This document shows positions 21,246 through 60,118 of a stretch of DNA of 64,000 nt, piece by piece. The stretch covers positions 1,197,277-1,261,276 of the forward strand of contig NC_007776.1 of assembly GCF_000013225.1 (NCBI RefSeq). The letters are read 5' to 3'. The notes under the pieces were generated by a model. That model did no database searches. It saw only the letters and a list, made by a program, of their open reading frames with translations, and was not told the DNA's origin. This DNA is from Synechococcus sp. JA-2-3B'a(2-13). Lineage in GTDB: Bacteria > Cyanobacteriota > Cyanobacteriia > Thermostichales > Thermostichaceae. Each line of letters begins with the position of its first letter. The stretch's first letter is position 1. Position numbers and translations under genes: made by a program.

Positions 21246-24200
21246 CTATGGAGAGAGCAGCGATTCGCTGCGGGCGGTGTAGCCGGCTTGACGCAGGGCT
21301 TCAACGGCGGCTTGGGCATTGTTAACCCAAAATTGGGATCCCATTCTCACCCAAAGGGTATGGGGATGGGCGGTGATGGCAGCCACGACAGGAATGCGAT
21401 TTTCTTCTTTAATTTCCGAGCGTTGGCGAGCGATTAGCGTCTGTAAACGGTATCGATCCTCCAGTGTCCCAGCAGAGTCGAGAGGGAGCTCCACCGTTAC
21501 CCAACTAACAGATTCAATCGGTTGTAAATCTTCCACAATCAGTTGCACCTGTTCATCCCGCTGATCCACTTTGGCCCAAACCAATAGCCGTTGATCCACC
21601 TCCAGGCAACCGCGCAAACGTTCATAGGTTTTGGGGAAGATCACTGCTTCACAACTGCCGGTGAGATCTTCCAGTTGCAAAATGGCCATGCGATCCCCTT
21701 TCTTGGTTGTGACATTTTTAATGGCAGTCACCAGGGCGAGAACGCCCACAGAGGCATCGGCTGCGCAGCCGCCCAAGTCAGCTAGGTTTACAGGGGCCAG
21801 CAGCCGCGCTTGCTCCTGAATGCGCCGCAGCGGATGATCCGAGACATAAAACCCCAGCAGCTCCCGTTCCAGCCTCAACTTTTCCTGGGGTGGAAAATCC
21901 TCGGTAACCGGCCCACGCGGAGCTTCCACAAATCCATTGCCGGCGCTGCCACTGCTCCCCAGTAAATCGAACAAGCTGGCTTGGCCGATGGCTTTGGACT
22001 TGGCTCGCTGCGCTGCCCAACTGAGGATGGGATCCAAATCGGCAATTAGTTGTTTACGATTTCCAGAAATACAATCAAAAGCGCCCGCACAAATCAGGGC
22101 CTCCAGGGCACGACGGTTAACAATGCGCAGATCCACCCGCTGGCAAAAATCCGCCAGAGAGGTGAAGGGGCCATCAGCTTGACGGGCAGCCAAAATGTTT
22201 TGAATGGCCCCCTCCCCTACATTCTTCACTGCCCCCAGACCAAACAAAATGCTGGATCCCTGGGGAGTAAAGTCCATTCCAGAACGGTTGATATCCGGCG
22301 GCTGAATTTGGATCCCAATTGACAAGCAATAGGTAATGTAGCGCTGTACCTTGTCCTGATCTCCCCCCACAGAAGAGAGCAAGGCTGCCATATATTCCGT
22401 TGGGTAATTGGCCTTGAGGTAAGCTGTTTGAAAAGTAATCAACCCATAGGCAGTAGAATGCGATTTATTGAAGCAATACTCGGCAAAAGCAACCATTTGA
22501 TCAAACAATTCTGTGGCAACTTCTTGGCTTACACCCCGCTTGGCTGCCCCCTGCACAAATTGCTCGCGGTGTTTCTCCATCTCGGAGACTTTCTTTTTCC
22601 CCATCGCTCGCCGCAGCAGATCGGCTTGGCCTAAGGTGTATCCGGCCATGTCTTGGGCAATGCGCATGATCTGTTCCTGGTAGAGGATGGCTCCGTAGGT
22701 ATCCTGAAGAATGGGCTTGAGGAGTTCGTGGGCATAGGTTACCGGTTTGCGACCGTGCTTGCGATCGATAAAGTCGGGGATCATTCCCGTATCCAATGGG
22801 CCTGGCCGGTACAAGGCCAATACTGAAGAAATATCTTCCAGGTTGGAAGGTTTGAGCTCCCGCACCACCTGCTTCATGCCAGAAGATTCCAGTTGGAAGA
22901 TCCCTTCCAGCTCTCCCTTTTCCAAAAGCTGGTAGGTTTTCTTGTCGTCTAGGGGTAGGTTATCCAGATCTATATTGACGCCATTGTGTTCTCGGATCAG
23001 TTCCACTGCCCGCTGAATCATCGTCAGGTTGCGCAGACCCAAAAAGTCCATCTTCAGCAAGCCCAAAGACTCGATATCTTCCATCGAGTACTGGGTGATA
23101 ATTTGGCCTTCATTGTTGTACTGCAGAGGCACGATCTCATCTAAGGGATCCTTAGCAATCACCACACCGGCAGCGTGAACCCCGAAGGTTTTGTTGGTGC
23201 CCTCCAACAAACGTGCCAGCTCGATCCAGCGGTGGGTGGTTGGGTCTTTCTCGTATTTTTCTTTGAACTCTGGAGCGGGAGTATCCTCGCCAATCATCTC
23301 TTCCAATTTTGCGGGCTTGCCTCGGGATACCGGGATCAATTTCGCCATTTTGTCGGCTTCTGAGTAGGGAATGTCTAAGACTCGACCGACATCTTTGAGA
23401 ATGGCTTTAGAGGTCATGCGGTTAAAGGTGATGATCTGGGCGACTCGCTCTTGGCCGTATTTGCGGGTCACATAGTCGATCAGCTCTCCCCGCCGCTCGA
23501 TGCAAAAATCCGTATCAATATCCGGCATCGATTGACGTTCTGGATTGAGAAATCGCTCAAACAGTAGGCCGTATTTAACCGGGTCAATGTTGGTAATTTG
23601 TAGGGCATAGGCCACCAGGGATCCTGCTGCCGAGCCTCGCCCCGGCCCCACCGGGATCCCCTGCTCGCGGGCATAGCGAACGTAGTCCCAGACCACCAGG
23701 AAATAGCTGGAGAAGCCCTTTTGTTGGATGATGTTCAGCTCAAAGCGCAGGCGCTCCTGGTAGTTTTGGGGGATCTGATCCGGCTGAGCAACACCGCAGC
23801 GCTTCGCCAGCCCCTGCCAGGCCAATTCTGTGAGATAGCTATCGGCAGAATGGCCCGGTGGAACCGGGTAGTCGGGCATGCGCATTTCCCCAAATAGGTC
23901 ATAGCCCTCGATCTTTTCCAGCACCTTCAGGGTGTTGGCGATGGCCTCGTCAATCACCTCCTGTTCCAAATGGTCACGGCAGAGACGGCGCATCTCTTCT
24001 GGGCTTTTCAGGTATTCGGTTCCGGTGTAGCGAAGGCGATTTTTTTCAGTAAGGGATTTGCCTGTTTGAATGCAGAGCAGCGCATCGTGGGCCTCTACAT
24101 CCCAGCAGGAAATAAAATGGCTATCGTTGGTGAGGATGATCGGGATCCCCAATTCGCGGGCGATGCGCACCAACTGCACATTGACAAAGCGATCTTCTTG

Positions 24201-29946: not shown

Positions 29947-30897
29947 CTAGGGCGCACCTACAATCACGCTGGTGTCTTCCATTTGCTTCACGACCGTTTC
30001 TCCCCCTTCCGAGAGCACAACCCGTCGCTCTGGCACCGATACTCCGGCCACCTTGGCGGTTTGGTAGTTTTGCCCGGCCTGCACCACAGCGGGAATGACA
30101 CCTGGGCCAGAAACCAGAGCAAAGGACTCGCCGCCGATCTGTATCATCCCGGAAACCTGTACACTGCGGGCAAAGGCAGCCGGGTCGGGGGTAGGCGTTG
30201 GGATCGGGGTGGCCACTGCTACAGGCGCTCCATTGCCGTCGCCAGGAGGGGGCAAAACCGGAGGTGGAGGCAGGGGCGGCAGGACAATCTGCGGTTCAGG
30301 AGCACGCACGTTTTGAGGCACAAAGGGATCCACACGGCCAGCCCCACTCAAGGCCCGCTGGGTTTCCTGCTCTCGATCCACTGGCGGGATCAGGCTAGAG
30401 GCAGCTTGGGTAGCCTGCAGAAGGGAGGGCACCGGCGGCGGGGGTTGATCGGGGAGGGGCCTGAGGAGCCGGGGGAGGGACTGCAGAAGGGAGGGCACCG
30501 GCGGCGGGGGTTGATCGGGGGCGGTCTGGCCAAAACCGGCAGGCAAGTTCACCGTTTGTTGCCGGGCGAGAGCTTGCATCTGGCTGGCTCCGCGGGCCAA
30601 GGTGGCGCTCATATCCTGTTCCCAAGTCCCTGCAGCATTCAGCCGCATGATCACAGGGCTGGTTCCCCCCCGAGACTCCACCCAAATTTCCGCTTCTGTG
30701 TCGCTCAATCGCCGCGAGCTGAGGATCCGGGATCCCGGAGGCAAGAGGGGCCGAAGCGCCAGTTCGGCCTCAGGAACAGCCTGTTCGTTGGCCAGAGCCG
30801 GGAACCAACGGGGGGCCAAAAACGCAACGCCCCCTGCCAACAGCAGGCCGGCTACAAGAAAGCAGGACAATGGGCGAGCAGGCAGCGATTTCAGCAT
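29947..30897 (-). CDS. Unknown secreted or membrane-anchored protein with Pro-rich duplicated linker
   Basis: A 316-residue protein from ATG 30895-30897. A hydrophobic N-terminal helix (PLSCFLVAGLLLAGGVAFLAP, shortened here) acts as signal or anchor. The middle is Pro-rich and carries an exact duplication: PDQPPPPVPSLLQ occurs twice, 22 residues apart. The C-terminal domain has AGRVDPFVPQ, then SGMIQIGGESFALV and a final KVAGVSVPERRVVLSEGG. The 'RVDPFVP' and GESFALV pattern resembles pilus-assembly PilP-type proteins, which is only a suggestion. The 284-bp element begins 13 bases upstream of its ATG. Confidence 0.75.
   Translation of the reverse strand: MLKSLPARPLSCFLVAGLLLAGGVAFLAPRWFPALANEQAVPEAELALRPLLPPGSRILSSRRLSDTEAEIWVESRGGTSPVIMRLNAAGTWEQDMSATLARGASQMQALARQQTVNLPAGFGQTAPDQPPPPVPSLLQSLPRLLRPLPDQPPPPVPSLLQATQAASSLIPPVDREQETQRALSGAGRVDPFVPQNVRAPEPQIVLPPLPPPPVLPPPGDGNGAPVAVATPIPTPTPDPAAFARSVQVSGMIQIGGESFALVSGPGVIPAVVQAGQNYQTAKVAGVSVPERRVVLSEGGETVVKQMEDTSVIVGAP
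30415..30520 (-). repeat. In-frame 40-base direct repeat inside the Pro-rich coding region
   Basis: Identical 40-base copies at 30415-30454 and 30481-30520 are 66 bases (22 codons) apart, so the frame is preserved and the peptide PDQPPPPVPSLLQ is duplicated. This looks like a recent slippage or recombination event. Confidence 0.9.
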
Positions 30898-30910
30898 AGA
30901 GACCACCGGG

Positions 30911-31194
30911 AGAGCATGACTCTAGTCAATAATAAGCTCAACTATACTGAAAATAATGTATAATATGTTCAGTACGGATTACTACCAGTTGATCTTTCTG
31001 TTTACTTTCGAGTCTGCCAACATGGTAGCCAAAGCAAAGCAGAAAATTGGTAGTAAGACGACACGGAAACTGCGCTTTGGGTATTCTACTCAAAGCTTTG
31101 CGGGATACCGCCATTCTGGTTGGAAACAAACAGAATGCTATCGCTGCATAGTTGAACAGTGATGTTCAGCAGTGTTCAGCGTAAATGTATCAGC
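30911..31194 (+). mobile_element. 284-bp non-autonomous element, copy A (internally deleted TnpB derivative)
   Basis: Copy A and copy B (35511-35794, inverted) agree over all 284 bases compared by eye. The left 60 bases are AT-rich end sequence with a hairpin (AGAG-CATGA-CTCT) and a TATAAT at 30959-30964. The middle encodes part of a TnpB (YYQLIFLFTFESANMVAKA and KIGSKTTRK), and the right part encodes the TnpB C-terminus in another frame (ALGILLKALRDTAILVGN). So it is a TnpB element with two internal deletions. The right end has a hairpin TGAACA-GTGA-TGTTCA (31154-31169) and ends in the conserved TGTATCAGC. It matches the right end of the decayed TnpB at 59485. Confidence 0.88.
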
Positions 31195-31400
31195 CTCGTA
31201 TCCTCTCCACCAAAATATCCAAAATCTTCGTGATGGGGCCAAGCCGAGCTGCTTTTCTCGACAACAGTGCTAGGATTTGTCGATCGAAACAGTGGCACCA
31301 TGTCCCCAGAGATCCCGACCGGGCCAGACAAAGACGGCCTCTGTCCAAGCGCAGCCTCGTTTGCCATACTGAAGAAAGATTGTAAATATTTGTTAACGCC

Positions 31401-32150
31401 ATGACTGTCTCTGCTTTGGATCCCGCCAACCCCGCCCGTTTACAGGAGATCGCTCAACGCTTGCGCAGCCCGCGTTCTGCAGACCGGATGGTGGCCTTGG
31501 CCCAGTTGCGGGATGTGCCGGCAGAGCAGGCGGTGCCGCTGATTTTGCAGGTCATCGACGATGAGAACCTGCAGGTGCGCTCTTTTGCCGTCTTTGCCCT
31601 GGGGATCAAGCAAACGGACGCCTGTCTGCCCAAATTGCTGGAAATCCTCACCCAAGACCCGGATTATGGCATTCGCGCCGACGCGGCAGGTGCCCTGGGC
31701 TACTTGGAAGATCCGCGGGCTTTTGAAGCTTTAGTGCGTGCTTTCTACGAGGATGTAGAATGGCTGGTGCGCTTCAGTGCCGCGGTGGCCTTGGGGAACT
31801 TGAAGGATCCGCGGGCTTACGACGTGCTGCTGCGGGCGTTGGAGGGGCCAGAAGAGCTGCTACAACAGGCGGCCATCGCAGCTTTGGGAGAACTGGGGGA
31901 TCCGCGGGCCCTGGATCACATCCTGCGGTTTGCCCAATCGGAAGACTGGCTGGTGCGGCAGCGGCTGGCCCAAGCGCTGGGCAATTTGCCTTCCCCCAAG
32001 AGCGTTTCTGCTCTCAACTACCTGGCCAGGGATCCCCACGATAGCGTTGCGGCGGCGGCTCTGGATTCGCTGCGGCGCTTGCGGCAAAGGGGCATCTCAG
32101 AAACCACCCCTGAGAAGGGATCCGGGCCAGCCAATTCTGAGGAAGGCTAA
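31401..32150 (+). CDS. HEAT-repeat protein, NblB/CpcE-like
   Basis: A 249-residue all-helical repeat protein from ATG 31401. Six or so HEAT-like repeats are visible with the typical A-x-x-A-L-G-x-L pattern: RADAAGALGYLEDPRAFEALV, RFSAAVALGNLKDPRAYDVL, QQAAIAALGELGDPRALDHI and QRLAQALGNLPSPKSV (quoted in part). This spacing and length resemble cyanobacterial NblB proteins and the CpcE/F phycobilin lyase group, linked to phycobilisome turnover or chromophore handling. Which of these is right cannot be decided by eye. The upstream 206 bases follow the right end of element copy A. Confidence 0.85.
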   Translation: MTVSALDPANPARLQEIAQRLRSPRSADRMVALAQLRDVPAEQAVPLILQVIDDENLQVRSFAVFALGIKQTDACLPKLLEILTQDPDYGIRADAAGALGYLEDPRAFEALVRAFYEDVEWLVRFSAAVALGNLKDPRAYDVLLRALEGPEELLQQAAIAALGELGDPRALDHILRFAQSEDWLVRQRLAQALGNLPSPKSVSALNYLARDPHDSVAAAALDSLRRLRQRGISETTPEKGSGPANSEEG

Positions 32151-32252
32151 AGTAAAGATCCCGGCTCAGCTTGTTCCGGGTTCCCCAATCCCCAGAGAGA
32201 GGCCTCCTCTGTTTCCGGCTGAGCCTTTCTTTTCCTAGGATCCCTTGTCTCA

Positions 32253-33359
32253 ATGGTTATCAGCCCCCACTCATCGGTTTCACCTGTTGCATCCCCGTCG
32301 CGGCCCCGCATTGTGGCGGCCCTTTCTGGGGGTGTGGATAGCTCTACGGTGGCGGCCCTTTTGCAGGAACAGGGCTACGCCGTGGAGGGGGTCACCCTCT
32401 GGCTCATGAGGGGGAAGGGGCAGTGCTGTACCGAAGGCTTGGTGGATGCGGCAGCTGTTTGTGAGCAGCTGGGGATCCCGCACCATGTGGTGGATAGCCG
32501 CGAGCTGTTCCAGGCCAACATTGTCGATTACCTGGTAGCCGGCTACGCGGAGGGCATTACTCCCCTGCCCTGCTCCCAATGCAACAAGCTGGTGAAATTC
32601 GGCCCGTTGCTGGCCTATGCCCGCGAAAAGCTGGGCATCTCGCAGATGGCCACCGGCCACTACGCACGGGTGCGCTTTAACGCCGAGCTAGGACGTTACC
32701 AACTCCTGCGGGCGGTAGATCGGCAGAAGGATCAGTCCTATTTTCTCTACGACCTCAGCCAAGAGCACCTAGCCCATAGCCTCTTCCCCTTGGGCGAGTA
32801 CACCAAGGCCCAAACCCGTCAGTTGGCTGCCCGCTACGGGCTGGTTACAGCCGACAAGCCCGAAAGCCAGGATCTCTGCTTGATTGAAACCTATGGCTCG
32901 ATGCGGAGCTTTTTGGATCAGTACCTTGGGCAAAGGCCAGGGGAAATCGTCGATACCCAGGGGCGAGTGCTGGGATCCCATGAGGGCATCCACCACTACA
33001 CGGTGGGCCAGCGCAAGGGGTTGGGGATTGCCTCTTCCCGTCCGCTTTACGTGGTGCGCATCGATGCGGCCATGAACCGCGTTGTCGTGGGGGAACGGGA
33101 GGAGGCTACCCAGGCTGAAGCGTGGGTAAGCCAAGTCAACTGGGTCTCTATCCCGGCGCCGACGGGATCCTTGGCTGTTGAGGTTCAGGTGCGCTACCGT
33201 ACCCCCCCAGTGCCCGCCATGGTGATCCCGGAATCGCCAGAGCGGGTAAAGCTGCAGTTTGCCGAGCCGCAGTTTGGGGTCACTCCTGGCCAAGCCGCCG
33301 TCTGGTACCACGGGGATCTCCTGCTGGGGGGAGGGATCCTGGAGCGCCCTTCTCCCTAG
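32253..33359 (+). CDS. mnmA: tRNA-specific 2-thiouridylase
   Basis: Makes the 2-thio group of the wobble uridine in tRNA-Lys, -Glu and -Gln. The 368-residue protein starts at ATG 32253. The PP-loop is [15 protein letters not shown], the first catalytic Cys is in [13 protein letters not shown], and the second lies in ESQDLCLI. The C-terminal beta-barrel domain ([15 protein letters not shown], then [11 protein letters not shown]) is complete. It has no operon partner: a 102-base gap separates it from the HEAT gene. It lies between the two inverted 284-bp elements. Confidence 0.96.
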
Positions 33360-33417
33360 GCCAACTGCAACTTCCCTCTCGCCAGGGGGGAAGGATTGGG
33401 GGTGAGGGCAAGCCAAA

Positions 33418-34083
33418 CTACGCTGCTTGCGCTTGCAGCTGCTGCAGGGATCGGAACAGGAGCACTGTATAGATATTGAGGATAGGCGCAACTGCCGTGG
33501 CGGCAGCATTCCCAACCACAGCCGCACCTAGGGTATCTCCCAGGATCCCCCCAACAGAAAACGAAATCAGGATCGCGATGCCGAAGATCAAACCCACGGC
33601 CAGAAATGCCCAAAACACCCCCCACCAACGGCCCCTGACGAGGTTCCAACTGTAGCCCAACCCTTCCGTGGCACCTTTGTCTTCCAGGACAATCGCGTAG
33701 AGGGTAAAAGCTAGCCTCACCCCCCAGTAGATTCCGGGAAGCACAAACAACAGCATCCCCAGCGAGACAATCAACACCAGCAGAATGCTGCCGAATACCA
33801 GAGGCACTGCCCTAGAGACAGCCCGATCCAGGCTGTTGCCCAGCGGGGGAGTTCGCTGCTTCAAGTGCTGATCCACCAACCAGAAGGCTGCCCCGGCCAG
33901 GATGGGCGCACCAATCAGGCCATAGGCCAAGTTGAGGATCCCCCCGGCAAGCGGGATCAGCTCCGCAACGATGGGAATGACAAAGCCAGGAGAAGCCAGG
34001 ATCAGCAGCGGCCCATAGATAGGGCCTACCAGTTCCAGCGAGCGCTGCAAAAGGGAGAAGGGGTTGAGGGTAACATTCTGCAT
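33418..34083 (-). CDS. Unknown multi-pass membrane protein
   Basis: A hydrophobic protein of 221 residues if started at ATG 34083 (MQNVTLNPFSLLQRSLEL); ATG 34125 would add 14 residues and the full frame reaches 34215. At least four to five membrane segments are visible, such as ILLVLIVSLGMLLFVLPGIYWGVRLAF and FWAFLAVGLIFGIAILISF (given as separate parts of the protein). The FVLPGIYWGVRLAFTLYAIVLE segment recalls bacterial DUF975/glycerophosphodiesterase-membrane-domain proteins. The function is unknown. It lies downstream of, and its upstream end overlaps the 3' end of, the FAD oxidoreductase frame only if the longest start is used. Confidence 0.7.
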   Translation of the reverse strand: MQNVTLNPFSLLQRSLELVGPIYGPLLILASPGFVIPIVAELIPLAGGILNLAYGLIGAPILAGAAFWLVDQHLKQRTPPLGNSLDRAVSRAVPLVFGSILLVLIVSLGMLLFVLPGIYWGVRLAFTLYAIVLEDKGATEGLGYSWNLVRGRWWGVFWAFLAVGLIFGIAILISFSVGGILGDTLGAAVVGNAAATAVAPILNIYTVLLFRSLQQLQAQAA

Positions 34084-34190
34084 AACAGAGGGATCCTCGT
34101 GGGCGACCAAGTTCACCCCCTTCATACCACGGGATCCCGGCTTTGGTTCTGGGAGCAGGCTTAAGAAAGTCTGTATTGCTTTGTACAGAT

Positions 34191-35510
34191 CTAGGCGGAT
34201 TTTTGGAGGATCCACGCCGCTGCCTGTTCGCCGCTGCGCAGGGATCCCTCGATGCTGCTCTGGTGAGTGTACTCTCCAGCCCAGAGAAGGCCTGGCAGGC
34301 CGCTATGGGTGGGAACCAAATGCTGCTGAAAGCCGGGGGGTTGTACAAACTGGGCAAAAGGGATCCGGTACACCCGCAGCAGGCGCAGTTGCTCCAAGGG
34401 GGCTTTATCGCTACGCGACGCTGCCGCGACGGGGAAGTAAGTTTGCAGCTCGGCCTGGCAGGCTTGGGCCAGTTCCTCGTCCCTCAAGGGGGGATCCCCT
34501 AGCACCACCACAGAGTACAGGTGTTGGCCAGGAGGAGCCAGCGCCGGGCTGATGCGGGTAAGTTGGACCCAATGGTTGATCCAGCCCTGGCCGGTGGCGT
34601 TGAGGTACAAGTAGGCGCCGCGGCTGAGGGAAAAGGGGGCGCAGAAGTAGAGACAGGTCACCGCTCGCCCCTGGGTGGGAATGGGGGTGGGGGCTTGAGG
34701 GCACAGCTCCGCCTGCCAGGCCCGTGCCTGAGGGGCATCAGTAGCACAAACTACCCACTCGGCAGGGATCTCTTCACCCTTGGCGGTGCGGATCCCGCGC
34801 ACTTTCCCGTCTTCTGCCAGGATGCGCTCCACCGGGGTTTGGTAGCGAATCTGTTCGGGGGACAGGTGACCGGCCAGTTGTCGGGCCAGTTCTCCCATGC
34901 CCAAGGCCGGGGTGACAATGGATCCCTCGGCCATCATCTTGAAATAAAAGGCAAAGAGGCGGGCGCTACTGCCCAGATCCGGATCTAGAAGGATCCCGCG
35001 GAAAAAGGGGTAGAAAAAGTGCTGGCAGATCTGTTGGGAAAAGCCGTACTGCTCCAGAAACTCCCGCAGCGAGCAATCGGATCCCCCTAGCCCTTCTTGA
35101 AAAACCTGCTCCGGGCTGCGGCGCGCCAGCTCGGATCGCAATTGCAGCACCTTGAGCTTGTCCCCAAAGCTGGCCAAGGGGTTGAGCAAAGAGGGGAGAA
35201 GGCTGGACAGATCCCGTAGGGGATCCCCCAACAGCCAGCAGCGACCGGGTTGAGCCAAAATAGCGCCGGGCCGGTAGGGACGGGGATCGAGCTTGCCTAG
35301 ATCCAAATGCTGTCGCACTTTGGGATAGGCGGTGAACAGCACCTGAAAACCGCGATCCAGGCGAAAGCCATCCACCTTGTCGGTACGCACCCGCCCCCCA
35401 GGGCCGTCGCTTTTTTCCAGAACCAGGACATCCCTCCACCCCGCCTGGCTCAGCACTTTGGCGCAAGCCAAGCCGGCCAGCCCCGCCCCAATGATGACAA
35501 CTTTGCCCAT
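34191..35510 (-). CDS. FAD-dependent oxidoreductase (amine oxidase / phytoene-desaturase-like)
   Basis: A 439-residue flavoprotein from ATG 35508-35510 (MGKVVIIGAGLAGLACAKVL). The N-terminus is a classical Rossmann FAD motif GAGLAGL with a second Glu-containing segment (VLEKSDGPGGRVRTD). The C-terminal FAD site is LLWAGEYTHQSSIEGSLRSG, typical of the amine oxidase/carotenoid desaturase superfamily. The substrate is not evident. Element copy B begins one base upstream of its start codon, so the original promoter and ribosome site are displaced. The short repeat at 34408-34431 lies inside the frame (peptide VAAASRSDK). Confidence 0.88.
   Translation of the reverse strand: MGKVVIIGAGLAGLACAKVLSQAGWRDVLVLEKSDGPGGRVRTDKVDGFRLDRGFQVLFTAYPKVRQHLDLGKLDPRPYRPGAILAQPGRCWLLGDPLRDLSSLLPSLLNPLASFGDKLKVLQLRSELARRSPEQVFQEGLGGSDCSLREFLEQYGFSQQICQHFFYPFFRGILLDPDLGSSARLFAFYFKMMAEGSIVTPALGMGELARQLAGHLSPEQIRYQTPVERILAEDGKVRGIRTAKGEEIPAEWVVCATDAPQARAWQAELCPQAPTPIPTQGRAVTCLYFCAPFSLSRGAYLYLNATGQGWINHWVQLTRISPALAPPGQHLYSVVVLGDPPLRDEELAQACQAELQTYFPVAAASRSDKAPLEQLRLLRVYRIPFAQFVQPPGFQQHLVPTHSGLPGLLWAGEYTHQSSIEGSLRSGEQAAAWILQKSA
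34408..34431 (-). repeat. Copy 1 of a short GC-rich dispersed repeat inside a coding region
   Basis: Carries TCGCTACGCGACGCTG then CCGCGACG. It is translated within the FAD oxidoreductase as VAAASRSD. Related copies are at 35939-35962, 36909-36932 and 47786-47809, the last in the opposite orientation relative to its gene. Confidence 0.75.
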
Positions 35511-35794
35511 GCTGATACATTTACGCTGAACACTGCTGAACATCACTGTTCAACTATGCAGCGATAGCATTCTGTTTGTTTCCAACCAGAATGGCGGTAT
35601 CCCGCAAAGCTTTGAGTAGAATACCCAAAGCGCAGTTTCCGTGTCGTCTTACTACCAATTTTCTGCTTTGCTTTGGCTACCATGTTGGCAGACTCGAAAG
35701 TAAACAGAAAGATCAACTGGTAGTAATCCGTACTGAACATATTATACATTATTTTCAGTATAGTTGAGCTTATTATTGACTAGAGTCATGCTCT
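35511..35794 (-). mobile_element. 284-bp non-autonomous element, copy B (inverted copy of 30911-31194)
   Basis: Inverted duplicate of copy A; no mismatch was found by eye. Its right end (GCTGATACATTT on the plus strand, from 35511) directly abuts the ATG of the FAD oxidoreductase. Its left end is at 35794, 66 bases from the 3' end of the pseudokinase gene. The identity of the two copies means recent transposition or conversion. Confidence 0.88.
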
Positions 35795-35822
35795 GCCGGG
35801 ATCCCTTCTTCGTCGAGTATTT

Positions 35823-35864: not shown

Positions 35865-38140
35865 GGCTGAGCTGGGTCGGCTGGCCCCCAAATGCGAATT
35901 GAGCCATCGGCGCCACCACTGAGAAGGGTCTGCCCATATCGCTGCGCGACGCTTCCGCGACCGGGGCCAAACAGCAAGACGCTCACCATCCAAGTCTGGC
36001 CGCCCAGGGTGCGCAACTGTTCTCCGCTGCGCAGATCCCAGAGCTTAATCTGGTGAGCGCGGTAATCGGTGCCGCTGGCGAGCAAGCGGCCATCAGGGCT
36101 GAGGGCAAGGGCGGCCAAGCCGGACAAAGTCTGGGGCAAGGTGCGCTCCAAGGATCCCGTGCCCAAGTTCCAGACCAAGATGCCACCGGTACTGCCGGCG
36201 AGCAAATAGCGGCCATCTGGACTCAGAAGCACCTGCTCGATGGGGTAGTCGGCCTTTAGGGTTTCCAGCAAGGCCCCGCTGCCAGGATCCCAAAGGTGAA
36301 CGGTGGGATCTCCATTGGCGGCCACCAAGATCCAAGGGGGGATCCCTTCAGACTGGCGGGAAGTATTCATACGGGTGGGTCTTGGGCCAAAGGCCACCGC
36401 TGTAATGCCTGCCCTCTGAGGGGTATCCTGGGCGGCGGCAGCAGTGTGAGGCGATAGGGTGCGGATCAACTGGCCGTTGTCGGCCTGCCAAAGGCGGATG
36501 GTGCGGTCGGCGCTGCCACTGGCAATCCAACGACCATCGGGGCTAATGGCGACACTGTTGATCAACCCGGTGTGCCCTTGCAACTGCAGCCGCGCCAGCA
36601 CATCCCCAGGCGAGAGAGCCGGATCCCCCAGGGTCGCCAGATCCCAGACCCGTGCCGTCTTGTCTGCCCCCCCACTCACCAAAAAGGTACCATCTGGGCT
36701 GATGGCCAGTGCCTCAACGGATCCCTCGTGGCCTGCCCAGCTCTGGAGCAGTTGGCCAGCCTGGGGATCCCAAAGCCGGATCACGCCGTCGTCTCCCCCG
36801 GCAGCAAGGAGATTTCCATCCGGGCTGATGGCCAGAGCAGTGACGGCGACAGGGCCTTCCAGCGTAGCCTTGAGCTGCAAAGACTTGGCCCAGTCTGCCG
36901 GGTCGTTATCGCTACGCGACGCTTCCGCGACCGTGACGGCGGTGGGGACGGAGGCATGAGAACCGTTCTCGCGAGTAGGATGGAGTCCCAGGCCGTTGCG
37001 CTTTGCCGGGCCAGAGGATCCCGTTCTCGTGAGGGGGACAGAATCCTTGGGCTCCCCCCGCAGGCCAAGGTTCGCCCTCATCTGCCATACCCCTGCCACC
37101 GTCAACGCCAGCAAAGCCGCCAAGCTGCCTCCTGCCCAAACCGGTGGGATCCGGGGACGCGCCCGCAGCGATACCGGAGAACGCGGTGGGGTGGTTGGCT
37201 CCTGTAAGGGCTCGGCGGCGACAGGGCTGGGCTGGGACAGGAGTTCGGCGGCAGGGGGGCTCTCGGCGGGGGGCAAAGCCTGCAAAGCGGCCAGAGCTGC
37301 TGTTGCTGAAGGAAAGCACTGTTGTGGGTTGCAGCTCACCAAACGATCCAGAAAAGCAGCAAAAGGAGCGCTAGTAGAGGCCAGATCGTGCCAGCGCAAC
37401 TCCCCCGTCAACGGGTCGCGAAACAGCTTCTGGGGCGGGATCCCGCAGAGGGCCTGCAGGGCAATCAGCCCAAGAGCATAGAGGTCGCTGCAATGCCTGG
37501 GGCCATAGGGGTTCCCGAAGCCAGAGCCGGAAAAAGCCAGACCCTGTTCCTCACCCCCCCACTTCAACAACACCCATCGGCCATCCGCCTGACGGTAGAT
37601 CAAGCGAGAGGGCTGCAGGTTGCAGCAGCTCACCCCTTCCTCATTCAGGAAGGCCAAGGTTTGCAGCACATCCTGCAACAAGGCTCGTACCTCAGCCTCT
37701 GTCCAGTCGTGCCCCCAATGGCAGTGCATTTGGCGGGACGGAGTCGTTAGCTGGCCCCTCTCGGTTGCGTTACCTAGCAATAGAGCTTGTTCCAGGGTGG
37801 GCCCTTCAACCCATTCTTCCACCCAATAAAACTCCCCCTCTTGCTCAAAGCAGGCCAACAGGCGGGGGATACCCTCGTGGGATCCCAGGTGCTCCCGCAG
37901 CGCCACTTCTTGCTGAAAGAGATGCCGTAGCGAGGCGGAGTCCTCACTGTGTTCGCGGTGCGGAGCATTTTGGCCGGCCTGCCAGCGTTTGAGCACCACC
38001 CGAAGCCGCTCAGGATGATGGCTATCCTGTGCCAAGTAGGTTTGTCCGCTGGATCCCAGTGCTTCCAAGATCTGATAGCGGCCACCCAGGGTCTGCCCTA
38101 CCATGGGGAGAGTGCGAACCTTTTCCTTCCGACCCATCAT
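35861..38140 (-). CDS. Pseudokinase-WD40 protein: Hanks-type kinase fold without catalytic residues, membrane helix, WD40 propeller
   Basis: A 759-residue protein. Residues 14-290 form a Ser/Thr kinase fold (RYQILEALGSSGQTYLAQD; Lys51 in VVLKRW). The catalytic HRD is replaced by Cys172-Cys173-Asn174 (SCCNLQPSRL), its downstream Asn by Arg179, and the DFG Asp by Lys193 (LLKWGG), so phosphotransfer is very unlikely. One membrane helix is at about residues 333-353. Residues 425-759 are at least six WD40 repeats (ISPDGNLLAAGGDDGVIRLWD). The start may also be ATG 38104, closer to the conserved MVGQTLGGRYQIL. The gene carries two copies of the short GC-rich repeat. Confidence 0.92.
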   Translation of the reverse strand: MMGRKEKVRTLPMVGQTLGGRYQILEALGSSGQTYLAQDSHHPERLRVVLKRWQAGQNAPHREHSEDSASLRHLFQQEVALREHLGSHEGIPRLLACFEQEGEFYWVEEWVEGPTLEQALLLGNATERGQLTTPSRQMHCHWGHDWTEAEVRALLQDVLQTLAFLNEEGVSCCNLQPSRLIYRQADGRWVLLKWGGEEQGLAFSGSGFGNPYGPRHCSDLYALGLIALQALCGIPPQKLFRDPLTGELRWHDLASTSAPFAAFLDRLVSCNPQQCFPSATAALAALQALPPAESPPAAELLSQPSPVAAEPLQEPTTPPRSPVSLRARPRIPPVWAGGSLAALLALTVAGVWQMRANLGLRGEPKDSVPLTRTGSSGPAKRNGLGLHPTRENGSHASVPTAVTVAEASRSDNDPADWAKSLQLKATLEGPVAVTALAISPDGNLLAAGGDDGVIRLWDPQAGQLLQSWAGHEGSVEALAISPDGTFLVSGGADKTARVWDLATLGDPALSPGDVLARLQLQGHTGLINSVAISPDGRWIASGSADRTIRLWQADNGQLIRTLSPHTAAAAQDTPQRAGITAVAFGPRPTRMNTSRQSEGIPPWILVAANGDPTVHLWDPGSGALLETLKADYPIEQVLLSPDGRYLLAGSTGGILVWNLGTGSLERTLPQTLSGLAALALSPDGRLLASGTDYRAHQIKLWDLRSGEQLRTLGGQTWMVSVLLFGPGRGSVAQRYGQTLLSGGADGSIRIWGPADPAQP
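35939..35962 (-). repeat. Copy 2 of the short GC-rich dispersed repeat, inside the pseudokinase gene
   Basis: The core is TCGCTGCGCGACGCTTCCGC then GACC. It is read in a different frame from copy 3, giving GRGSVAQRYG in the last WD40 repeat region. Confidence 0.75.
36909..36932 (-). repeat. Copy 3 of the short GC-rich dispersed repeat, inside the pseudokinase gene
   Basis: TCGCTACGCGACGCTTCCGC then GACC; read as VAEASRSD (residues 404-411) in the linker between the membrane helix and the WD40 domain. Confidence 0.8.
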
Positions 38141-38184: not shown

Positions 38185-39462
38185 GGGCTGGAGGCCCGCA
38201 CCATAGCCGCAGGCTTGGTGTCGGGAGGAAAGCCCTCCTCCATATAGGTTTGCTGGTCAAAAGTCTGGATGAACTACAATAAGCCTATGAGCCAGGCCAT
38301 ATCTGTACGTTGCAAGCTGATAGTCCCTGTAGAGTTGCGTCAAGAAATTGACCGCACCCTGCAGAGGTTTGCTGACGCTTGCAACCAGATTCTGGATACC
38401 GCCAAGCGTGAGAAGTGCTGGAACACCGTCAAGCTGCATCACCTGGTCTATCGACCGGTAAGAGCAGCAACGGGGCTGAAAGCCAACCACGTCTGTCAGG
38501 CGCTCCGTCGGGTGATTAGCAATGCCAAGGCGGTGAAGCAAGTCCACAAGTTCCGCCCCACCAGTCTGACTTTGGACGCTCGTACTTTTAAGTACCGAGA
38601 GTCCGACCAGGCCGTGGGCGTGACCCTGATGAGCGGACGGGTTTGGCTCAAGCTCAAGATTGGCGGTTATCAAATCGCTTTGCTGCGGGGGCAAACGCCC
38701 ACCAGCGCTACTCTGTCCAAGACCAAGCAAGGGGAGTACTACATCAACATCGCTGTTGAGCTGGATACTCCCCCGACTGGCAAAACTCCAAAGGTAATCG
38801 GAGTTGACTTGGGCAGGCGGGATATCGCCACCGCTAGCAATGGACGCTCTTGGAGTGGAGAGCACATCCAGGCCGTCCGTGACCGGTTCAGCCGTGTACG
38901 CGCCAAGGTTCAATCCAAACGCACTCGCAGCTCTAGGAGGCTGCTGAGAAGGCTCTCTGGGAGAGAACGGCGCTACCAGACATGGCTGAACCATAACATC
39001 AGCAAAACCTTGGTCAGGGATGCCCAGGCTATTGGTGCGGCACTGGCTTTTGAAGACTTGACAGGCATCAGAGATTGCTTGAATCAGAAGTCTCGAAGTA
39101 AGGCTGAGCGGCGCAGGACTAACAACTGGGCGTTCTACCAGCTCAGGATGTTTGTAGCCTACAAGGCTGCCATTGCTGGAGTGCCTGTGGTGCTGGTGCC
39201 GCCTGCCTACACCAGTCAGACCTGCCACAAATGCCTGCACATCCACCCTGAGCGGGGTAAGTCCTACCGCAATGGTAAGTCGTTCAAGTGTGGGCACTGC
39301 GGGTGGGAAGGGGATGCTGACCATAACGCTGCTCAAGTAATCTCTCTCCTTGGGGCGACTGTAAACTCGCCTGAAATTCCGAAACTTAGCTGTCCTCTGG
39401 GGCCGCTAGGGATTGGGATAAAGCCCGCACCCTGCGCATAGCGCGGGTGTCGGGTAGTTTAC
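38185..39462 (+). mobile_element. Orphan TnpB element 1 (IS200/IS605 superfamily, IS1341-like)
   Basis: Contains one tnpB gene and no tnpA. The left hairpin is at 38195-38225: CCCG-CACCA-T-AGCC-GCA-GGCT-TGGTG-T-CGGG. The right hairpin is at 39424-39454: CCCG-CACCC-T-GCGC-ATA-GCGC-GGGTG-T-CGGG. Both have the same bulged T on each side. After the right hairpin comes TAGTTTAC (39455-39462), shared with element 2, which is taken as the right boundary; the left boundary is uncertain by about ten bases. GGATCC is absent from the whole element, unlike its surroundings. Confidence 0.85.
38287..39441 (+). CDS. tnpB: TnpB RNA-guided nuclease-like protein, element 1
   Basis: A 384-residue TnpB. The start MSQAISVRCKL (38287) is chosen because the segment TACAATA...ATGA is shared with element 2 at the same spacing. 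The RuvC triad is intact: Asp174 (GVDLGRRDIA), Glu256 (FEDLTGIRD) and Asp345 (GDADHNAA). The zinc ribbon has Cys313, Cys316, Cys335 and Cys338 (QTCHKCLHIH and KCGHCGW). TnpB uses an RNA from the element's right end to guide cleavage. The stop codon lies in the loop of the right hairpin, so protein and guide RNA would overlap. No TnpA is adjacent. Confidence 0.93.
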   Translation: MSQAISVRCKLIVPVELRQEIDRTLQRFADACNQILDTAKREKCWNTVKLHHLVYRPVRAATGLKANHVCQALRRVISNAKAVKQVHKFRPTSLTLDARTFKYRESDQAVGVTLMSGRVWLKLKIGGYQIALLRGQTPTSATLSKTKQGEYYINIAVELDTPPTGKTPKVIGVDLGRRDIATASNGRSWSGEHIQAVRDRFSRVRAKVQSKRTRSSRRLLRRLSGRERRYQTWLNHNISKTLVRDAQAIGAALAFEDLTGIRDCLNQKSRSKAERRRTNNWAFYQLRMFVAYKAAIAGVPVVLVPPAYTSQTCHKCLHIHPERGKSYRNGKSFKCGHCGWEGDADHNAAQVISLLGATVNSPEIPKLSCPLGPLGIGIKPAPCA

Positions 39463-59484: not shown

Positions 59485-60118
59485 GCTGATACATTTACGC
59501 TGAACACTGCTGAGCATTACTGCTCAACGGTGAAGCGATAGCATTCTGTCCGTTTCCGAACAGAAAGGCGGTATCCCGCAAAGCTCTGAGCATAACACCC
59601 AGAGCGCCTTGCCAATCTCGTGGTAGCCTATGGCTGCACTTTGGGCATCTAAACACCTTTGCGCCACCCAACTTGGTGTGGATGTGCCCGCACCTGGTAC
59701 AGGTTTTGCTGGTGTACGCTTCCGATACTTCCACGACGACCACGTTTTTCTTTTTGGCTTGGAACCTCAGGAACTGCTTGAACCGATAGTGCGCCCAGGT
59801 GAGCATCGCCCTTGCTGTCTTACTACCAAACTTCCTCCCCGCCTTGGCAACCATCTTGGCTGACTCGAAAGTGGGGAGAAATATCAATCGGTAGTTATCC
59901 GTCAGGAACGCCGCTACCTTGCGATGGCACTCGTCCACCAAGTTCCTGATTCTCTCCCGCAGACGAAACGCCGCTTGCCGCATTCGCCTACGCTTGGGCC
60001 TCGGCGCTTTGCTCAGCCTAGATTGCAGATCGTCTAGGTGGTAGCACAGCCGAGCGATTCTACCAAAGTCCCCCTTGGCGATATCTACAAAACCTGCTCT
60101 CACTCTCTCTTGAGCCAT
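59485..60118 (-). pseudogene. tnpB: Decayed TnpB element related to the 284-bp elements
   Basis: Only the C-terminal half of a TnpB frame (about 207 residues) remains, entered just after the stop of the upstream membrane protein gene. Visible parts are GDFGRIARLCYHLDDLQSRLS, IFLPTFESAKMVAKAGRKF and SEAYTSKTCTRCGHIHTK (zinc ribbon). The catalytic motif region reads RDWQGALGVMLRALRDTAF, with Gln in place of the usual Asn. The N-terminal DPG-type catalytic Asp is missing, so it is inactive. Its right end GCTGATACATTT (from 59485) and hairpin (TGAGCA-TTAC-TGCTCA on the plus strand) match those of the 284-bp copies. Confidence 0.85.

Follow-up and report, generated by a model that had tools for sequence, protein, structure and literature searches.

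Miniature IS607-type elements in a Synechococcus genome carry an apparently complete TnpB guide-RNA scaffold

An inverted pair of identical, gene-less elements in the genome of Synechococcus sp. JA-2-3B'a(2-13) raises two questions: how the two copies came to lie where they do, and whether they may still work with a TnpB nuclease encoded elsewhere. The window analyzed here is a stretch of 64,000 nucleotides (contig NC_007776.1, positions 1,197,277 to 1,261,276), and coordinates refer to it unless stated otherwise.

The two copies and their full-length relatives

A repeat search of the 64-kb window gave a sole inverted pair, 30906-31194 and 35511-35799, of 289 nt with 100% identity. The bases of this repeat outside GAG...CAG are chance matches of the flanks and the element proper is 282 bp; an earlier note on this DNA, made from the sequence alone, had rightly described two identical elements in inverted orientation, with a length of 284 bp. 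Copy A is located at 30912-31193 (+) and copy B, its inverted counterpart, at 35512-35793 (-), with a spacing of 4.3 kb. Alignment to two full-length elements of the same genome resolved both copies into the three pieces that the note had named: a left end (30912-30974 (+) in copy A, 35731-35793 (-) in copy B) corresponding to positions 1-63 of the full-length elements with 87-92% identity; a decayed remnant of the RuvC region of tnpB (30975-31071 (+) and 35634-35730 (-)) corresponding to positions ~1350-1444 with ~76% identity; and a right end (31072-31193 (+) and 35512-35633 (-)) corresponding to positions 1644-1765 with 80-89% identity, which includes a frame-shifted C-terminal piece of tnpB. 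The miniature is the product of two internal deletions of an ISSoc2-like tnpA-tnpB element, of which these three pieces are left, ISSoc2 being the name given to a Synechococcus IS607-type element (PMC10711439 and PMC10969869). The longest open reading frame of the miniature copies is 68 aa and has no Pfam match; as the note had stated, they cannot encode TnpB.

The two intact full-length tnpA-tnpB relatives are found at genome coordinates 31560-33324 (+) and 21285-23097 (-), and the tnpA and tnpB reading frames are open in both. Their TnpA is a 197-aa serine recombinase with a MerR-type helix-turn-helix (Resolvase, PF00239, 9.7e-18; MerR_1, PF13411, over its cut-off), and their TnpB matches PF07282, with PF01385 below its cut-off. 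The autonomous relative, present in two intact copies, thus carries the serine recombinase and MerR-like helix-turn-helix of the IS607 family and not the Y1 HUH transposase of IS200/IS605. PF01385 has 64 matches in the genome, a number well above that of the two intact ISSoc2-like elements, and the window itself contains a separate TnpB gene of another group at 38269-39441 (+), encoding 390 aa. This gene was set aside as a parent. Among the other TnpB loci of the genome that were compared, DNA similarity to the element was limited to L042, which adjoins a copy, and to L044, where 59 nt match.

The full-length copies found diverge by 11-25% from the miniatures. Nine full-length copies from three genomes encode nearly identical TnpB peptides in the middle piece, whereas the miniature peptide departs from theirs at eight or nine residues out of 30, with silent-site differences similar in number. 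The direct parent would consequently be a diverged full-length lineage that was not found, and the extant full-length copies are, as judged from these comparisons, diverged cousins of the miniatures. The intact parental element for which the earlier note had suggested a search is therefore represented by intact relatives, but not by the direct parent.

Copy number, insertion site and mobility

The genome, a single contig of 3,046,682 bp, contains 43 near-identical copies of the miniature, a number well above chance, with 40 scored by similarity search and the remainder added by their end pattern, in two size classes (28 copies of 282-283 bp and 15 of 306 bp). The congener G001 has further copies of both sizes, so that the wider occurrence that the note had wanted checked extends to relatives. 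The ~24 bp by which the classes differ lie in a single apical loop of the RNA at the right end, and the sequence inserted there in the 306-bp copies (GGACTCCGTCCCGCTNACGCGAA) also occurs, shorter or longer, at this position in other members of the group. One stem is lengthened via this apical loop by a dispersed palindromic repeat of ~24 to 48 nt (GGACTCCGTCCCGCT...) in three kinds of element, namely the 306-bp copies, the long form of a second miniature family described below, and the full-length L062 and L143-L155. The window also contains short dispersed repeats of the form TATCGCTACGCGACGCT.CCGCGAC at 34399-34435, 35930-35966, and 36900-36936, which resemble the loop insertion of the 306-bp copies in style. 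At one further locus (L067) a solo right end (GTTCAGCGTCAATGTATCAG) has degenerated and retains little scaffold.

The only feature common to the flanks of the copies is a purine before GAG, which is present in 92 of 95 elements if the count takes in the second family and full-length copies; the target motif is common to miniatures and full-length elements. An occupied site reads R-GAG[CAT...TATC]AG-y and an empty site R-GAG-y, which indicates recombination within the AG dinucleotide, in line with what an IS607 serine recombinase would do (PMC10711439). The core is this 2-bp AG, with no longer duplication, and GAGCATGACT... at one end and ...AATGTATCAG at the other do not form inverted repeats. 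When the joined flanks of all 43 sites were searched against three congeners, 14 gave alignments readable at the junction, most of which show an intact R-GAG-y. The element is absent from site A in G001 and G002 and from site B in G001 and G003, in each case between the same neighbors, so that the empty-site check proposed in the earlier note came out positive for both window positions. The lack of terminal inverted repeats, the insertion at a matching dinucleotide and the precise empty site are all as in IS607 elements. The core GG of IS607 and ISXfa1 is replaced by AG in the window elements, a difference not taken to exclude membership because IS607 elements typically use matching dinucleotides (PMC10711439).

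Two other origins of the pair were considered. A larger segment could have been duplicated and inverted to give identical copies 4.3 kb apart; however, the identity ends at the element ends, the flanks differ, and the precisely empty sites at matching places in relatives indicate independent insertions, which makes this origin practically untenable. Scarcely more credible is the proposal that the copies are dispersed regulatory repeats of the host and not mobile elements. Both window copies do lie near start codons, copy A ~14 bases from an ATG at 30897 (-) and copy B one base from an ATG at 35510 (-), but the precise empty sites, the constant target motif and the ends shared with a tnpA-tnpB element all argue against it, as do the insertion sites, which differ between two congeners with one site alone seen in common (L016/L098), whereas regulatory repeats would be expected at conserved positions. 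The findings that the earlier note had named as damaging to its reading were not made, since there are other copies and full-length relatives, and the pair is not accounted for by any larger duplication. Taken together, the copy number, the precise empty sites, the common target motif and the two intact tnpA genes elsewhere support the proposal that copies A and B are non-autonomous IS607-type elements moved in trans. Moreover, copies are identical between two congeners whose orthologous flanks are ~87% identical, which, with the single common insertion site, points to recent spread between species in addition to mobility within the genome.

The right-end RNA and other gene-less elements

The 122-nt right end folds with a z-score of -5.3. 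Its structure comprises four hairpins and one pseudoknot, the latter formed in copy A between a loop, GAUA (31104-31107 (+)), and a 3' strand, UAUC (31188-31191 (+)), which is followed directly by the AG core (31192-31193). In an alignment of seven sequences, drawn from the two miniature families and the full-length elements of three genomes, 97.6% of cells are paired and 11 pairs have changed on both sides, a score reached by none of 500 shuffles (slid controls, 0-3). Among 42 distinct sequences the paired fraction of cells is 93.3%, and changes on both sides are seen in 38 of 42 pairs, the pseudoknot included. The pseudoknot helix was left outside the covariance model, and an alignment fitted to nested helices favors those helices and not the pseudoknot; it is nevertheless 95.1% paired with compensatory changes, its loop and partner occurring as GAUA/UAUC, GAUU/AAUC, GCUA/UAGC, and GACG/CGUC.

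The covariance model, which scores 138 bits in each of copies A and B, matches 64 places in the genome: the 43 and 16 copies of the two miniature families, the two full-length elements, one truncated copy and two weak matches. There are 53 places in G001, and 24 of 386 cyanobacterial genomes have matches, which overlap the 3' end of tnpB at nine other loci with a complete tnpB. The truncated copy, at 59486-60097 (-), is of full-length type and retains the 3' half of tnpB and an intact right end with scaffold but no left end; it is 97.5% identical to the genome element 31560-33324 and scores 149 bits, the best in the genome. Its left junction, GTGAGAG-CAGG, resembles the R-GAG target.

In the full-length relatives the structure extends from within the 3' end of tnpB as far as the right boundary; its stem-loops are conserved, and its pseudoknot joins an apical loop to the 3' end of the scaffold, all as in guide RNAs of TnpB (omegaRNA/reRNA). 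Rfam contains no model for it. The TnpB of the IS607 element ISXfa1 requires an equivalent pseudoknot for activity, its TAM is GGG, and the nucleotide flanking its right end is treated as part of the scaffold (PMC10711439). The right 122 nt therefore model as an apparently complete TnpB guide-RNA scaffold, and the note's guess that such a scaffold might be encoded there gains support from the covariation. By analogy with IS607 reRNA (PMC10711439), the predicted guides would be the right-end flanks, with an inferred length, at 31194-31213 (+) for copy A (CCTCGTATCCTCTCCACCAA) and at 35492-35511 (-) for copy B (CATGGGCAAAGTTGTCATCA). The latter spans the start codon (35510, -) of the downstream gene, which is flavin amine-oxidase-like.

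The second miniature family has 16 copies in the genome (L063:2101-2395 and 15 other places). Its R-GAG...CAG ends and its scaffold are those of the first family, whereas its interior is unrelated and contains no piece of tnpB. Its first 151 nt are identical in the 16 copies and in nine copies of G001, and 69% identical in G002. Upstream of the RNA is a promoter-like site, TTGGCA-17-TATAGT, that agrees with the consensus at 10 of 12 positions and has a counterpart in G002 (TTGCCA-16-TATTGT); 0.1 sites were expected per region, and each scan also gave one site on the opposite strand. The interior includes a hairpin motif, GATCCTTGAGTC...GCCGGGAAGTGAAGG, which is also conserved in G002, and the changes there appear to be compensatory. 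Rfam gave no match for this interior, and an origin from a group I intron (IStron) was set aside on that basis.

In this genome 59 scaffolds thus reside in gene-less elements, compared with two intact tnpA-tnpB elements of the same type, a ratio of about 30 to 1. Gene-less elements with the scaffold and other interiors are also present in G116, G338, and G362, with similar ones in G002. Those of the distant cyanobacteria G116 and G338 (L268:190-560, L269, and L273:330-540) have in common a 23-nt motif around GATCGGTATTGCACCGTG between the left end and the RNA. The two of G362 (L257:650-949 and L263) are 90% identical to each other and lie beside full-length copies with tnpB, with which they share the scaffold part (~116 nt) alone.

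Proposed use of the scaffold and known systems

TnpB is thought to hold its transposon in place by cutting the empty site after excision. The reading that we favor, and consider fairly likely, is that the elements are protein-less miniatures of IS607 type, moved in trans by TnpA, which keep a complete TnpB guide-RNA scaffold and may use it for retention. The serine recombinase TnpA of an intact relative, acting in trans, would recombine the AG at the element ends with an R-GAG target. Transcription through the right end would yield a guide RNA with the flank as guide (CCTCGTATCC... for copy A and CATGGGCAAA... for copy B), to be bound by the TnpB of a full-length copy. The guided TnpB would cut an empty chromosome site, R-GAG-y, in which GAG is the putative TAM as judged from the target site, while the occupied right junction, TCAG-y, with CAG and not GAG, lacks the motif and would be spared. 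Repair of the cut site from a chromosome copy still holding the element would then retain it. Retention and gene-drive roles of TnpB have been described for IS200/IS605, with an IS607 element used in one assay (PMC11870625), and by analogy the miniatures may exploit this retention system as well as the transposase.

The main alternative, to which we give somewhat less than an even chance, is that these are ordinary internal-deletion miniatures with young deletions, in which the right end is kept for TnpA and the guide RNA is an unused or unmade passenger. In line with this, no sigma-70 promoter-like site was found in the window family, and no selection on RNA structure was seen among 60 present copies, where four of nine variable positions on paired bases break the pair, which is about chance (45 of 84 possible transitions would keep it); both window copies carry one pair-breaking change (G at model column 51). 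Because the full-length copies found are 11-25% diverged, part of the conservation of the RNA could also predate the deletions. Against a passenger, however, the conserved stretch is 122 nt long, shows compensatory changes and keeps its pseudoknot intact, and the second family retains this same stretch despite its unrelated interior. In addition, the tnpB remnant has decayed faster than the RNA on the miniature branch, with 17 changes in 90 nt compared with seven in 119 nt, as against 11 and 26 on the other branches (relative-rate test with the G002 element as outgroup; Fisher p = 0.003).

Beyond use of the scaffold for retention lies a wider and more doubtful reading, a recurrent cyanobacterial class of solo-guide elements, protein-less and of IS607 type, consisting of two ends and a guide-RNA gene with its own promoter, which would use the TnpA and TnpB of others, a few TnpBs serving dozens of guides. 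If gene-less elements do supply guides to TnpB made elsewhere, so exploiting both retention system and transposase, one nuclease would receive numerous natural guides, and this could conceivably be a step by which a transposon nuclease with a single guide moves toward a many-guide system. With ~30 gene-less scaffolds for each intact tnpA-tnpB element, the question of guide sharing is directly testable in this genome. The parent TnpB is of wider interest, as cyanobacterial IS607 TnpBs have been placed near the ancestry of eukaryotic Fanzors, with ISSoc2 as an example (PMC10711439).

Multi-copy miniature derivatives of ISSoc2 were reported from thermophilic Synechococcus in 2012 (Nelson, Bhaya, and Heidelberg, J Bacteriol 194:3636, as cited in PMC10969869), and the window elements are very likely these, as matched by the description in PMC10969869. 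That report predates the discovery of TnpB guide RNAs, and the scaffold would be a later reading. New here are the retention of a covarying guide-RNA scaffold by miniature families, the excess of gene-less scaffolds over intact elements and the similar gene-less elements in other cyanobacteria; no report of guide-RNA-bearing miniature IS607 elements was found in the literature searched, whose incomplete coverage makes this weak evidence of absence.

Like classical MITEs, the window elements are short, multi-copy and without coding capacity. MITEs in the strict sense have terminal inverted repeats and a target-site duplication, however, whereas the window elements lack such repeats and show no duplication longer than the 2-bp core. 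Another likeness is to the non-autonomous IS200/IS605 elements, PATEs among them, which are likewise protein-less relatives of insertion sequences with TnpB and are mobilized in trans; these depend on a Y1 HUH transposase and have palindromic ends, whereas the window elements would depend on a serine recombinase. The closest likeness is to the IS607 elements with reRNA, ISXfa1 and ISSoc2, in the serine recombinase, the TnpB, the recombination at a 2-bp core, and a right-end RNA with stem-loops, a pseudoknot and a fixed right-flanking nucleotide (PMC10711439). Unlike ISXfa1, with its core GG and TAM GGG, the window elements have the core AG, the target R-GAG, and no genes.
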